From NCBI GenBank assembly GCA_027483145.1, contig JAIXVG010000389.1, positions 1-32,816 of the forward strand: DNA of 32,816 bases, read 5' to 3'. A program made the position numbers and the translations under genes. Numbering within the stretch: position 1 is the stretch's first letter; the number at the start of each line of letters is the position of its first letter. This DNA comes from Planctomyces sp. Lineage in GTDB: Bacteria > Planctomycetota > Planctomycetia > Planctomycetales > Planctomycetaceae. Of this stretch, positions 16,460 to 21,873 are shown in pieces. The notes beneath the pieces were generated by a model. The model saw only the letters and a list, made by a program, of their open reading frames with translations. It was not told the origin of the DNA and made no database searches.

Positions 16460-16821
16460 AGAGCGAAGGGAATCACCTGACGGCTCGCGTTGTCGGCTCG
16501 GTGGGTCGTCCGAATTGTTTTTGTGCTGACAGTGCCAATCGTCGGGTTCCTGGAGTGCCCGTTCGGTCGCGGTTTCGAACCTGCTCTTGCCCCAATCCTA
16601 AATCTTCGCGATAACCCGCGCGGCGGCAGATTTTGCCGATCAGAGCCAGCGTGCGCTCGGTCTGGGAAGCGTTCTAGCAGCAGCGTTGCCCAACTTGGCG
16701 CTCTTCTTCAACAGTGGTTTCAAAACCCTCTGGCGGGAAATGCCAATCCTGGATTTTAGTGAGTCGTATTTGCCACCAACCGGGTTTTGAAACGGCCTCT
16801 AGCAAGGAGCATACGGGCGCT
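16460..16821. other. Intergenic region before the glycan cluster
   Basis: These 362 bases between xseB and the first glycosyltransferase hold no gene I can support. Their notable content is the 77-bp imperfect palindrome at 16717-16793, listed separately. No clear promoter boxes are seen, although the cluster's promoter should lie here. A longer frame of the glycosyltransferase (from 16714) crosses the palindrome and is unlikely to be the real start. Confidence 0.5.
16717..16793. repeat. 77-bp imperfect palindrome
   Basis: The outer arms are perfect over 12 bp: GTTTCAAAACCC (16717-16728) and GGGTTTTGAAAC (16782-16793). The inner arms 16731-16741 and 16768-16778 pair at 9 of 11 positions. A 26-nt loop separates them, giving 21 base pairs in total. 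There is no flanking target duplication and no T run. It could be a small non-autonomous repeat, a protein-binding site or an mRNA hairpin; one copy in a window cannot decide. Confidence 0.7.
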
Positions 16822-17646
16822 ATGACGAACCGGAGTGTGATCACCGGGACTACCAGGATCAACGAGACCATTAGCTGTAGCGATCGCCCGATCCAGTTAC
16901 ACCAAAGTCAGCTCGGTTCTTTGCAGCCATTGGTTTCCATTGTGACAGTGGTCTTCAATGGAGCGAAAACCCTGGAAGCTACCATTCAATCGGTGGCGGC
17001 CCAGACGTACCGCAACATCGAATTCATTGTCATCGATGGTGGCTCGACTGATGACACTTGCGAGATTCTCGCGAAGTACAATTCCGTCATTCGATGCTGG
17101 GTCAGTGAGCGAGACCGGGGCTTATACGATGCGATGAATAAGGGACTTGATCGCTGCCACGGGGAATGGGTCTTATTCCTTGGGGCCGATGATACGCTTT
17201 GCACTCGCGACACAATTGAAAACGTTGTCCGCCAAGCCGACCCTACGGCCGACCTGGTGTATGGCGATGTCAATATGACCGACGGCAGCCAGTTTGCAAC
17301 GGCGTTTAATGCTCGGCTGCTCTTGCGAAATACAATTCATCATCAAGGAGCATTTTACAGCAAGAAATGCTTCGCTGATTTTCGCTATGACACGAAGTAC
17401 CGAATTTGTGCCGACTATCAGCTGAACTTGCGGCTGTACCAACAAGGGGCCAGGGGCCATAAGCTGCCGTTTCCGATTGCTTTGTGTGCTGTTGGCGGTG
17501 TGAGCACAACTCCTCGCAATCGGGCGGCCTCGATTGGCGAAATGAATCAGATTCGGGCGGGTGAAGTCCATCCTGTGATGCAGTTGGCAGCCTCGACGAC
17601 TTTGGCGGTGAGGCAGTACGCAAGGCGAGTTCTCTTGTGGAACTAA
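16822..17646 (+). CDS. Family 2 glycosyltransferase
   Basis: A GT-A-fold family 2 glycosyltransferase, 274 residues from the ATG at 16822, preceded by AAGGAG 12 bases upstream. It transfers a sugar from a nucleotide-sugar donor; the donor and acceptor cannot be read from the sequence. Motifs: VSIVTVVFNGAKTLEATIQS (38-57), IDGGSTDDT (71-79), ERDRGLYDAMNKG (96-108), the metal-binding GADD (121-124), HHQGAFY (173-179) and CADYQLNLRL (196-205). There is no membrane segment, so it should act at the cytoplasmic face. Its 3' end overlaps the next gene by 10 bases, implying one operon. Confidence 0.92.
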   Translation: MTNRSVITGTTRINETISCSDRPIQLHQSQLGSLQPLVSIVTVVFNGAKTLEATIQSVAAQTYRNIEFIVIDGGSTDDTCEILAKYNSVIRCWVSERDRGLYDAMNKGLDRCHGEWVLFLGADDTLCTRDTIENVVRQADPTADLVYGDVNMTDGSQFATAFNARLLLRNTIHHQGAFYSKKCFADFRYDTKYRICADYQLNLRLYQQGARGHKLPFPIALCAVGGVSTTPRNRAASIGEMNQIRAGEVHPVMQLAASTTLAVRQYARRVLLWN

Positions 17647-19160
17647 TCGAAACAGCAGTGAAATGCTGGGACTATTATCTGATCCTGGTGATTGTCGCCA
17701 CGCTCTATGGCTTTGCCCTGTGGGGGACGCTCTACTCCCTGTTCGACCCGGCCATTGAACTTGTGCTGAACCTGATTTTTTCGGGGACGCTGGTTCTGTG
17801 GTTTTGGGCGAATCGGCTTATTGCTGATCAGTATGCCCTGTCCTATGTGCTGTGCAGTGCAGGACTATTAGCTGGCTATCGCCTGACCGTCTCATTACTT
17901 CGGCTATGGCAGCAGCGTCGAGCTTCTAGCTGGAGACGCAAGGAACTTGGGCAGTTTATCGCTGCGGGACGGAAGCTGGCGCAAGGGACCAAAGAGCATC
18001 AAGCAGCTCGGCGGCTGCTCGACTATCGGGCTGAAGAAGTCTTGAACTACCGGCACCTGACCGTCCTGGCGACGCTGCTAATGATCGTGACGGCTGCTGC
18101 CCTGATCTACCAGTCGCAAACCTCGGGTCTCGCCATCTTTTCTGATAACCCCTGGCTCGATCGAGTCTCGCTGAATGCTTCTTCCCGCTGGCTTAGCATG
18201 TTATTCGCGGCTTGTAACCGAGTTGGCTTCATCCTGGGGGTGATCCTCTTTTTCTCCCCTTCGCTCCCTGGGGTTCCGCCTAAGTGGTACAGCGCGACGA
18301 TTATTGCGTTGTTTGTGATGTCGTGTGCTGCGGGGGGAAGTAAAGCCGCGCTGTTAACGCTGGTGTTTGCCTTCGGAATCATCCCGATGTATGTCCGCTG
18401 CTTCAGTGACCAACTGACTCAAGTATGGGGCAAACGGGTCCAACTGGCTGCGGTTGGAATCATTCCGCTGGGCCTGTTCTACTGTGTGTACATTATTGTT
18501 TCATCGGAACTGGGCGAAGATATCACCTGGGTCTTCATGCACCGCGTGGCGATGTCGGGTGAAACATACATCTACTTCTTTTTTGAGCGGCAGGTCGAAG
18601 CGCTGCAGTACACCTATCAGGCCAGCGACTACCTGCTGCATACGTTTACGGCTGCGTTTGGAATCAAGCTAATCCCCTATAACATCGGGGTCGCTCTTTA
18701 TGGTGGTTCCACCGGCGACTATGCCACGGGTGTTGGTCCCAATCCTCAACATGCAGTGGAAGGGATTGTCTTTTTTGGACTGTATTGGGCACCCCTCTAT
18801 TCTGCAGCGATTGGCATCGTCTTTGGCCTTTCTCGCGAACTACTTCGAGACTCACGCTCGACGTTTGGATTTGTCCTGTTTTTGATTTTGTGTCTCAATG
18901 CTTCGGCTCTGCCGATTGATGTGAATCTGTGGATTTTCAATACGGCTGCATCGGTCTTGTTTGTGATGGGGCTGTATCTGGTCGTCGCGGTTCTGACCCC
19001 TTCTCCCAAGCGACGGCGAGCCGTCTCGAATCCTGAACTGACCTCAATCATTGAGATCTTAAGCCAGAGCAAACCGGTCGAAACCAAAGGGAACGTTCCC
19101 AGATCACCGTCGTTGGTCCCCTACCCGCGAATTTCGCCGCTGAAAAAGGCTGCATCATGA
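17637..19160 (+). CDS. Polytopic membrane protein, probable Wzy-like polysaccharide polymerase
   Basis: A 507-residue inner-membrane protein with about ten hydrophobic segments, for example at 13-35, 40-60, 68-88, 140-160, 185-210, 218-252, 268-289 and 430-455. Two soluble parts stand out: a basic loop at about 90-138 and a hydrophilic tail from about 457. A large loop before the last helices includes GPNPQHAVEGIVFFGL, a pattern seen in O-antigen or oligosaccharide repeat-unit polymerases, which are otherwise very divergent. It starts with GTG at 17637 inside the upstream glycosyltransferase and overlaps the next one by four bases (ATGA). Polymerase is the best guess from topology and neighbours; a ligase is possible. 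Confidence 0.7.
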   Translation: MELIETAVKCWDYYLILVIVATLYGFALWGTLYSLFDPAIELVLNLIFSGTLVLWFWANRLIADQYALSYVLCSAGLLAGYRLTVSLLRLWQQRRASSWRRKELGQFIAAGRKLAQGTKEHQAARRLLDYRAEEVLNYRHLTVLATLLMIVTAAALIYQSQTSGLAIFSDNPWLDRVSLNASSRWLSMLFAACNRVGFILGVILFFSPSLPGVPPKWYSATIIALFVMSCAAGGSKAALLTLVFAFGIIPMYVRCFSDQLTQVWGKRVQLAAVGIIPLGLFYCVYIIVSSELGEDITWVFMHRVAMSGETYIYFFFERQVEALQYTYQASDYLLHTFTAAFGIKLIPYNIGVALYGGSTGDYATGVGPNPQHAVEGIVFFGLYWAPLYSAAIGIVFGLSRELLRDSRSTFGFVLFLILCLNASALPIDVNLWIFNTAASVLFVMGLYLVVAVLTPSPKRRRAVSNPELTSIIEILSQSKPVETKGNVPRSPSLVPYPRISPLKKAAS

Positions 19161-19978
19161 CGACCCAAGTTTCATCGGGACCCAATCCAGCAGATCAACC
19201 GGCCGCATCACCAGAGATGCCAGCCGTTCTGAATTCTGTCTGCATGGCGACGTACAACGGCGAACGATTTGTTCAGCGTCAACTGGTATCGATTCTGTCG
19301 CAGCTTGGTCCCCATGACGAAGTGGTCGTGGTCGATGATCACTCGCGCGATGGCACGCTGAACGCCATCGAGGATCTGGCAGATTCTCGCATTCGGGTCT
19401 ATCAGAATCCCGTTAATCTAGGAGTAGCAACGACGTTCGAAACGGCGATGAAGCTGTCAACGGGCGATCTGCTTTTTTTGAGCGATCAAGACGATATCTG
19501 GCTGCCCCATAAAGTAGCGACCGTACGCAAGGCGTTCGAAAGTGCCGGAACGCAACTAGTGATGCACGACTCGTGCGTGGTTGATGCCGAGCTAAACGTG
19601 ATCACTCCTTCGTATTTTGCCTGGCGAAAGACCCAAACGGGGGCGATCCGCAATCTGCTGCTCAATCCCTATCAGGGGTGTTGCCTGGCGATGCGACGAA
19701 CTCTGCTGCCGCTACTCCTTCCGTTGCCCAAATCGCGACGGGTGCTTCACGATTGGTGGATTGGCGTTCATGCCGAGTTCCATGGCATTCGGCCGGTATT
19801 GATCGCCGAACCACTCATTAAGTTTGTGCGACATGGCAAGAACACCAGTTCGATGCTCGAACAACGCAAGACCTACGATAAGGTGATGGACCGAGCCGCG
19901 ATCGCCATCGAATTGGCCTTGCGCAACCTGCAGGGGGACGCAGTCGCGACCAGCCGCAAAATCCGACGAGCTTCATAG
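19157..19978 (+). CDS. Family 2 glycosyltransferase (rhamnosyltransferase-like)
   Basis: A second family 2 glycosyltransferase of 273 residues, coupled to the polymerase by an ATGA overlap. Motifs: SVCMATYNGERFVQRQLVSI (27-46), VVVDDHSRDGT (57-67), NLGVATTFETAM (87-98) and SDQDDIW (109-115), the last typical of bacterial dTDP-rhamnosyl- and related transferases. Later come QGCCLAMRR and HDWWIGVHAEFHG, which fit acceptor and catalytic positions of the family. It has no membrane segment. The sugar specificity is not certain. Confidence 0.9.
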   Translation: MTTQVSSGPNPADQPAASPEMPAVLNSVCMATYNGERFVQRQLVSILSQLGPHDEVVVVDDHSRDGTLNAIEDLADSRIRVYQNPVNLGVATTFETAMKLSTGDLLFLSDQDDIWLPHKVATVRKAFESAGTQLVMHDSCVVDAELNVITPSYFAWRKTQTGAIRNLLLNPYQGCCLAMRRTLLPLLLPLPKSRRVLHDWWIGVHAEFHGIRPVLIAEPLIKFVRHGKNTSSMLEQRKTYDKVMDRAAIAIELALRNLQGDAVATSRKIRRAS

Positions 19979-20075
19979 TGGCCGAGTCGATTGCTGCGTC
20001 ATTCATGAAATGGGCAGCGACAGGCATTGGAGCACTTTCAGGCAGGTGGCCCAGGCATTCGAATTCAATCCGAAA

Positions 20076-20104
20076 TTGACACATTTTTGAGTTTCGGCTA
20101 TTTC
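20076..20104 (+). promoter_or_regulatory. Possible promoter of the oxygenase gene
   Basis: A perfect -35 box TTGACA (20076-20081) is followed after 17 bases by TATTTC (20099-20104), which keeps only the first three consensus bases of a -10 box. It lies in the 273-base gap after the second glycosyltransferase, about 145 bases before the oxygenase start. If real, the oxygenase can be expressed apart from the glycosyltransferases. Confidence 0.4.
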
Positions 20105-20251
20105 CGCCGGTACTAGCTTTGCGACAGCTGAAGCCTGCAGGGATTCCTTGAAGCGCCACCTGCGGAGTCTATGTGACGCGACTTGAGTTTGGCGTGGATG
20201 CCAACAACCCCAATCGTTCAACGATGTTTTGTGCTTCTAAGGAGAGATGCC

Positions 20252-21127
20252 ATGTCTGCCCCACATGCTGCTGTAGCGAATGAGACATCGTTGATTGGTC
20301 GCGAGATGTTGGCTGACTGCATGGTGGCCAAGTTGACTCCGATGGTTGAATCGCTGCGATCGGAGTTCTGCAATCCAGAGCACAAAATTCGAGCCTTTGC
20401 GATTGATAACATTGTCCCCGATGAATACGCGCAGGCCATAAATTCTCACTTTCCCGACCCAGGGACGATGATGCTGAAGAAGAGCCTGCGTGAGCACAAA
20501 TATGTGGCTGCACAGATGAACGCGTATCATCCTCAACTTGAGGAAGCGGTCTACGCCGTTCAAGACCCGCGAATTGTTGACCTGATGACAAACATCACCG
20601 GCATTGCCGGGATGGAACCCGATACGAATTTGTATGCAGGGGGAATTAGCCTGATGGCTCAGGATAACTTCCTGAACCCTCACCTTGACAACTCGCACGA
20701 TAAAGATCGTCAGCTTTATCGCGTGATCAACCTGCTGTGGTATGTCACGCCGGGCTGGAAAGAAGAGAACGGAGGGAACCTGGAGCTTTGGGACCAGGGT
20801 CCTAAAGGACCGAAGCGGACCTTCTTCTCGAAGTTCAATCGCCTGGTTGTGATGGAAACCAATCAGCATTCGTGGCATTCGGTCAGCCAGGTGGTCGCAC
20901 CAGGCAAACGCTGCTGCGTTTCCAACTACTACTTTTCCCCCTACGCCCCGGGGGAGAACGACTATTTCCACATCACCGCATTCCGTGGCCGTCCCGAACA
21001 GCCGATTCGCGATATCGTACTGCGGAGCGATATCGCGGTGCGGTCGAGCCTGAGAAAACTTTTCCCGACGGGGGTTGTTAAACCGACCCACGTCTATCAG
21101 CGCGATGAAGAGCCAACGGACAAGTAA
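20252..21127 (+). CDS. 2-oxoglutarate/Fe(II)-dependent oxygenase
   Basis: A dioxygenase of the 2OG-Fe(II) superfamily, prolyl-4-hydroxylase-like fold, 291 residues. The ATG at 20252 has AAGGAG seven bases upstream, a clear start. The metal triad is readable: H144 and D146 in NPHLDNS and the distal H209 in QHSWHSV. R220 in GKRCCVSNYYF would bind the 2-oxoglutarate carboxylate. ENGGNLELWD (172-181) between them is typical of the double-stranded beta-helix. There is no signal peptide, so it should be cytoplasmic. Members hydroxylate proteins, lipids or small molecules; its position after two glycosyltransferases suggests a role in glycan or lipid modification, which is inference. Confidence 0.88.
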   Translation: MSAPHAAVANETSLIGREMLADCMVAKLTPMVESLRSEFCNPEHKIRAFAIDNIVPDEYAQAINSHFPDPGTMMLKKSLREHKYVAAQMNAYHPQLEEAVYAVQDPRIVDLMTNITGIAGMEPDTNLYAGGISLMAQDNFLNPHLDNSHDKDRQLYRVINLLWYVTPGWKEENGGNLELWDQGPKGPKRTFFSKFNRLVVMETNQHSWHSVSQVVAPGKRCCVSNYYFSPYAPGENDYFHITAFRGRPEQPIRDIVLRSDIAVRSSLRKLFPTGVVKPTHVYQRDEEPTDK

Positions 21128-21223
21128 CGGCCTTTGCTATTCGCAGCGTGCGTCTTGACGCACCCAACAACACTCAGCAACGTTTCTGACTACCAAAAAA
21201 TCAAACTTCTCAAGACATCTACC

Positions 21224-21802
21224 ATGCGTCGTTGGTTTGCTCTCTCTCGCTGGCTGTTAACGGTGGCCTTTGTGCCGCTGGTTGGCGGCTGCGCGGGAAT
21301 GGGTCAAACGGCCTCGACAACCAACCCTATCTATGTGCGAGCCAATAACGACGAGTATGTTTGGGAACGGACAGTCGATGTTGTGCATGACTATCTATTC
21401 GAAATCGAACGAGAAAACCGGCTCGATGGCCTCATTGAGACCCGCTACAAGACAGGGAGTGGTTTGCTCGAGCCGTGGCATGGCGACTCTCCCACACTAA
21501 GCAGCCGGACGGAAAGTACGCTGCAGTCAATTCGCCGCAAGGCCTACATTCGCATTGCCCCGTCACAAGGGGGCTATATGGTTGCGGTCGAGGCCTTCAA
21601 GGAACTTGAAGACGTCTCAGGTGCTGCCAACTTTGCAGGCGGAGCAACCTTCCTGGAGAATAACCCGCTGCAGCGCGACTTAACGGCCGTGGTTGGTCAA
21701 CCCGCACCTTCGGGATGGATCCCTAAAGGCCGCGATGCGGAGCTTGAACAAGCGCTCCTCTCCTCCATTCGCACCGCATTTGGCGAAGCGGCCGGCCAGT
21801 AG
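21224..21802 (+). CDS. Small lipoprotein of unknown function
   Basis: A 192-residue protein with an N-terminal signal (MRRWFALSRWLLTVAFVPLV) and a lipobox ending in Cys23 (VGGC), so it is probably anchored in a membrane facing the periplasm. The mature part has no repeats or known motif that I recognise. It contains a short alpha/beta stretch with KAYIRIAPSQGGYMVAVEAF. An upstream non-ATG frame start (21134) is ignored because the signal peptide would then not be N-terminal. It follows the oxygenase by 96 bases and ends at a terminator, so it could be co-transcribed with the oxygenase. Confidence 0.82.
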   Translation: MRRWFALSRWLLTVAFVPLVGGCAGMGQTASTTNPIYVRANNDEYVWERTVDVVHDYLFEIERENRLDGLIETRYKTGSGLLEPWHGDSPTLSSRTESTLQSIRRKAYIRIAPSQGGYMVAVEAFKELEDVSGAANFAGGATFLENNPLQRDLTAVVGQPAPSGWIPKGRDAELEQALLSSIRTAFGEAAGQ

Positions 21803-21850
21803 TCTCTGCAGGCTGTTGCCCAAAGACGCTTCCACGGGACGAACAGAAAC

Positions 21851-21873
21851 CACAGCCAAGGGCGGTGTTTTTT
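21851..21873 (+). terminator. Intrinsic terminator after the lipoprotein gene
   Basis: CACAGCC (21851-21857) pairs with GGCGGTG (21861-21867) with one mismatch and a 3-nt loop, followed by six T residues. It lies 48 bases after the lipoprotein stop and before the converging DUF1501 gene. It marks the right end of the glycan-oxygenase-lipoprotein group. Confidence 0.7.

Follow-up and report, generated by a model that had tools for sequence, protein, structure and literature searches.

What is a predicted 2-oxoglutarate (2OG)- and Fe(II)-dependent oxygenase doing beside two family 2 glycosyltransferases (GTs) and a multi-helix membrane protein in a planctomycete genome? The arrangement occurs in Planctomyces sp. 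on contig JAIXVG010000389.1 (C141 in our numbering) of assembly GCA_027483145.1, which comprises 4.96 Mb in 625 contigs and is 89% complete; the whole contig, 32 816 nucleotides, is the stretch analyzed here (the window). An initial annotation had proposed that a self-contained set of GTs, polymerase, oxygenase and a lipoprotein could make or hydroxylate a surface glycan or a lipid anchor. We find that the oxygenase belongs with glycan genes in unrelated bacteria, and on balance we favor the reading in which it oxidizes a surface glycan or a precursor or decoration of that glycan.

Glycan genes beside the oxygenase in other bacteria

A GT gene lies within 5 kb of the oxygenase, and often directly adjacent to it, in 16 of the 20 close loci, which we define as those scoring at least 350 bits, window included. 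Without the window the count is 15 of 19, the opposite of the isolation from GTs in other genomes that had been named beforehand as speaking against a link. As a control, we applied the same models to 20 arbitrary regions of 12 kb each from seven flavobacterial genomes. These regions were set by round coordinates on contigs already retrieved, not drawn at random, and none contained a GT; the oxygenase loci of those seven genomes (L035, L096, L097, L098, L100, L101 and L102) are all GT-positive. Fisher tests of the counts take no account of kinship among loci, and we place no weight on them. The GT2 and GT4 models were built and iterated from the loci in hand and would miss unusual GT families. 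Open reading frames (ORFs) of at least 80 aa came from a simple caller that over-extended some N-termini (e.g. L032), and the flanks are uneven (1.6 kb on one side for L033, 1.9 kb for L034). L041 (truncated) and L103 score under 350 bits and fall outside the 20, while six distant planctomycete loci (L065, L105, L108, L109, L110 and L112) enter no count because their oxygenase ORF failed the hidden Markov model/ORF filter. Of nine more distant relatives (<140 bits), seven likewise lie no more than 5 kb from a GT.

The neighbors include further glycan functions. In one Flavobacterium locus, Pfam identifies a flippase, the sugar isomerase FdtA, a GT and a methyltransferase next to the oxygenase, with GTs in other loci. 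FdtA is found in 7 of the 20 close loci and a flippase relative likewise in 7, all of them flavobacterial, and the Gloeothece plasmid carries a large GT cluster.

Gene layout in the window

The glycan genes, the oxygenase gene and the lipoprotein gene sit between xseB and a DUF1501 gene; Pfam assigns xseB, nadC and the DUF1501 gene in the window flanks. Gene content such as DUF1501 is what one would expect of a planctomycete.

16822..17646, + strand: GT2a, family 2 glycosyltransferase (PF00535, 2e-26; best start ATG 16822)
17637..19160, + strand: multi-helix membrane protein, candidate Wzy-type polymerase (from hydropathy and gene order)
19157..19978, + strand: GT2b, family 2 glycosyltransferase (PF00535, 2e-25)
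20252..21127, + strand: 2OG-Fe(II) oxygenase, 291 aa (PF13640, 5e-16, and PF13661; H144-x-D146...H209...R220)
21224..21802, + strand: small lipoprotein, an ordinary gene found throughout the family and in our judgment outside the set

The two GT2 genes and the membrane protein gene do overlap, as the initial annotation had it (GT2a and membrane protein by 10 bases, membrane protein and GT2b by 4). The oxygenase has its best start at ATG 20252, with a clear AAGGAGAG ribosome site, and lies 96 bases ahead of the lipoprotein gene. The terminator said to close the lipoprotein gene was not recovered: a pattern scan, whose hits across the whole region outnumber those in its shuffles, gives no + strand site there and only a weak - strand site at 21866-21849. 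G + C content carries no signal of recent import and no island boundary at the accessory genes. By eye, no phage structural genes are seen among the large ORFs of the window, and its oxygenase copy lies outside any recognizable prophage.

The best partial NCBIfam match of GT2a is WcaE, at 97 bits far under the 369 required, and among the 119 other genomes searched of the same family (Planctomycetaceae) nothing matches GT2a at E ≤ 1e-30; the best match of GT2b in another family genome is 39% identical. The membrane protein has many hydrophobic segments and no convincing Pfam, NCBIfam or PHROG family match, and its single-sequence structure model is poor (predicted local distance difference test, pLDDT, 43.9). 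No homolog of it was found in 149 other family genomes, 245 other genomes of the phylum, plasmids or the 19 other close oxygenase loci. The “Wzy-like membrane protein” of the initial annotation thus stands as a membrane protein; hydropathy and gene order suggest a Wzy-type polymerase, with no family match to the label. With no relative of this protein found, a conserved pairing of oxygenase and polymerase cannot be shown. The 10 window proteins scanned with Pfam include no Wzx flippase and, as had been noted, no sugar-nucleotide enzyme; elsewhere in the genome there are two flippase-family matches (PF01943), on contigs C329 and C600 only. Since there are flippase candidates on other contigs, we do not take the set to be self-contained.

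The lipoprotein has another history. It is present in 142 of 150 family genomes, with copies in other genomes up to 66% identical. Only 2 of 25 relatives have a GT2 or GT4 gene at most 5 kb from the lipoprotein gene, against 16 of 20 for the close oxygenase loci, and the other 23 have none. Since it is also missing from the other 19 close oxygenase loci, we rejected it as a functional partner and, contrary to what had been proposed, do not place it in the glycan unit. Judged by gene content across these genomes, the two GTs, the membrane protein and the oxygenase are four accessory genes and the lipoprotein is an ordinary resident. In one relative (L054, 4719-10246), xseB and the lipoprotein gene lie ∼4.7 kb apart on one strand with housekeeping genes between them, named by eye as ABC-F, hemB-like and thyX-like; this single case suggests that the glycan genes fill a variable stretch between xseB and the lipoprotein gene. 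The lipoprotein also has a faint match to BamC/NlpB (E 0.041, under the cut-off).

Occurrence in genomes, plasmids and phages

Close members of the oxygenase family are rare where we found this one. Among 392 Planctomycetota genomes only that of the window carries one (444 bits; the runner-up scores 137 bits), and among 40 family genomes there is again one, with three more at ∼30% identity. A genome-collection scan returned 11 relatives, and the closest genome relatives (42-56% identical) come from Sphingomonas, Gilvibacter, Mucilaginibacter, Flavobacterium, Lacinutrix, an uncultured Erken bacterium and Legionella. On plasmids, relatives turned up in Sphingomonas hengshuiensis, in Gloeothece citriformis and on a Klebsiella plasmid of 7.5 kb. 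A close member is carried by 8 of 296 Flavobacteriales and 1 of 246 Sphingomonadales genomes, the center genome being counted in each. In the tree, members of different phyla are intermixed, and many forks are open or weakly supported. The best reading of this distribution is that the family is sporadic and moves horizontally. The Klebsiella plasmid (L071, CP067829.1) encodes an oxygenase 53% identical to that of the window, with an IS5 transposase as its neighbor; another plasmid, whose backbone is related, has a gene for lipopolysaccharide biosynthesis, and E. coli genomes gave no match to the Klebsiella plasmid oxygenase.

A scan of viral contigs yielded 21 oxygenase loci on 20 contigs (L143-L163), 39-57% identical to the window copy. 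In 15 of the 21, the oxygenase has a baseplate, S74-tail or spike gene no more than 2.5 kb away (families confirmed for representatives). Because 11 of these 15 have a related baseplate gene (73-100% identical), we count about four independent phage contexts near tail genes. In three viral loci the oxygenase adjoins an Acyl_transf_3 gene, a family through which phages acetylate O-antigen. The oxygenase lies within 6.5 kb of a contig end in 18 of 19 viral loci measured, some of the contigs being fragments. In the tree, L143-L145 group with members from glycan clusters and the rest join Legionella and the Erken metagenome-assembled genome (MAG) on a separate branch, a pattern that points to two or more acquisitions by phages; L160, L161 and L162 were left out of the second tree. 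The viral copies are likely lysogenic-conversion genes. Annotated phages gave only distant matches, in 6 records and below 30% identity. Cyanophages have numerous diverse 2OG oxygenase genes, whose viral functions, according to one article, had not been the subject of specific study (PMC9602691).

What the oxygenase may act on

The oxygenase scores 59.8 bits against PF13640 (cut-off 27). The H-x-D...H triad of the initial annotation is intact: H144, D146 and H209, together with R220, are invariant over 13 aligned relatives, as are many other positions. In this superfamily the triad supplies the iron ligands and the downstream Arg the 2OG ligand. Neither the window oxygenase nor four relatives has an NCBIfam equivalog above cut-off. 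The AlphaFold model (pLDDT 80.8) has the double-stranded-helix fold, and its closest solved folds are Tpa1/OGFOD1 (Z 17.0-17.8, ∼16% identity), followed by PHD2 (Z ∼16), PolD and others; both protein and small-molecule oxygenases are among these matches, so that fold alone cannot decide the substrate. Among viral models (BFVD), the best match is A0A5B8IHX4 of Mimiviridae ChoanoV1 (616 aa, E 5.5e-15), annotated as a GDP-mannose 4,6-dehydratase and perhaps a fusion of a sugar-nucleotide enzyme with an oxygenase.

Given both the glycan and the spike contexts, glycan oxidation is the reading that accounts for them most economically. The GT2 pair and the membrane protein would be an accessory fragment of a surface-glycan pathway. 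With 2OG, Fe(II) and O2, the oxygenase would oxidize its target, by hydroxylation or another reaction; this target could be the glycan, its lipid-linked precursor or one of its acyl or amide decorations, and the cell surface would be altered as a result. A glycan as the substrate, hydroxylation as the reaction, and the use of the enzyme by phages to alter their receptor are what we infer from these contexts. A broader version, which we advance tentatively and think rather less probable, is that 2OG oxygenases are traded among surface-glycan islands, plasmids and prophages, where they would oxidize the polysaccharide and so change the phage receptor (oxidative serotype conversion), the window holding a captured chromosomal copy. 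Such conversion would add another chemistry to glucosylation and acetylation.

Several observations weigh against glycan oxidation. Four close loci have no GT within 5 kb: the Klebsiella plasmid, which has no annotated glycan gene, Legionella, the Erken MAG and the Sphingomonas plasmid. On the last, the nearest GT is 6.8 kb away, rfbCBDA adjoins the oxygenase, and an O-antigen ligase-family gene and a priming transferase are nearby. None of the partner genes tested is common to all 20 loci. An ftsE-like gene is near the oxygenase in 11 of 12 flavobacterial loci (L033, L035-L038, L096, L097 and L099-L102), so that these loci count as about one site, probably a single shared chromosomal one rather than independent cases. 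A gap of 273 bases sets the oxygenase apart from the GT operon, so a single operon that includes it is not shown. Finally, most of the solved structures closest to the model are prolyl hydroxylases that act on proteins. When the flavobacterial loci are taken as one, we arrive at six seemingly independent glycan contexts: that flavobacterial site, Mucilaginibacter, Gloeothece, the window and, in Sphingomonas, one chromosome and one plasmid. Two of the loci without a GT have other neighbors: in the Erken MAG, with no glycan genes in place, a gene for a CesT-type (type III secretion) chaperone precedes the oxygenase (L039, 7532-7990), and the Legionella copies (L040 and L041) adjoin ORFs that look leucine-rich by eye, not glycan genes.

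The principal competing explanation is a protein hydroxylase, prolyl or similar (of the Tpa1/OGFOD1, PHD or Pseudomonas EF-Tu hydroxylase type), with a protein of the ribosome, surface or tail as its substrate. It accords with the top solved folds and with a sequence search of the PDB, in which OGFOD1 (2e-5) is the sole match below 0.001, and a glycosylated hydroxy-residue could even account for the GT neighbors. The sporadic distribution would be odd for a modifier of the ribosome or EF-Tu, however, the glycan and prophage contexts speak for another target, and the ORFs near the family loci examined contain no collagen-like G-x-y run of at least 8; we regard a protein substrate as unlikely, if a serious contender. 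Less probable again is that the oxygenase is a chance neighbor with its own transcript, unlinked to the GT operon. The gap and the separate ribosome site are what such a gene would have, the membrane protein occurs in no other genome searched, and G + C content marks no island; yet the oxygenase shares its strand with the GTs, similar neighbors recur at 15 of the other 19 close loci, and the four genes for GTs, membrane protein and oxygenase are accessory, in contrast to the conserved lipoprotein that flanks them. The five-gene unit of the initial annotation, in which GTs, polymerase, oxygenase and lipoprotein work jointly on a glycan or lipid anchor, could appeal to the common strand and close spacing, but it is already contradicted by the 142 of 150 family genomes that have the lipoprotein, against 1 of 150 for the membrane protein and 1 of 40 for a close oxygenase, and by the lipoprotein-free loci described above. 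We give it hardly any weight. Of the proposal that the oxygenase hydroxylates a surface glycan or lipid anchor, the association with glycan genes therefore survives and the unit with the lipoprotein does not.

The enzyme superfamily is known, and the literature searched (open-licence papers only) yielded no description of this oxygenase family. If glycan oxidation is correct, an oxygen-dependent enzyme edits surface glycans directly and moves between cells and phages, and oxygen and 2OG would be tied to surface chemistry and phage resistance. The reading predicts a hydroxylated or oxidized sugar or acyl group that depends on a single gene, which can be tested in culturable Flavobacterium and Sphingomonas.

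Comparison with known systems

With the PF13640 superfamily (prolyl-4-hydroxylase-like), the window oxygenase shares the domain, the H-x-D...H motif with its downstream Arg and the double-stranded helix, but it differs in having no equivalog assignment. Tpa1/OGFOD1, the prolyl-3-hydroxylase of ribosomal protein uS12 (as partly stated in PDB titles), is its closest solved fold, with Z up to 17.8 over ∼200 residues. Tpa1/OGFOD1 has two double-stranded-helix domains, and its chains are 457-563 residues long compared with 291 for the window oxygenase; the 291-residue model aligns with ∼200 residues of these chains, in ranges that give only first and last residues. Unlike Tpa1/OGFOD1, the oxygenase family is sporadic in bacteria and found in glycan or prophage contexts, and this sporadic distribution argues against uS12 hydroxylation by the window oxygenase.

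Wzx/Wzy clusters resemble the window in their GT2 genes and polytopic membrane protein, and some relatives of the oxygenase sit in fuller clusters of this kind. The window differs in that the 10 proteins scanned include no flippase, chain-length regulator or sugar-nucleotide enzyme, and in that its polymerase is only a candidate. Lysogenic-conversion genes such as gtrABC and oac encode glucosyl- or acetyltransferases rather than an oxygenase, and the window copy, as noted, is not in a prophage; its viral relatives are, like those genes, found near prophage tail or spike genes, three of them beside Acyl_transf_3.

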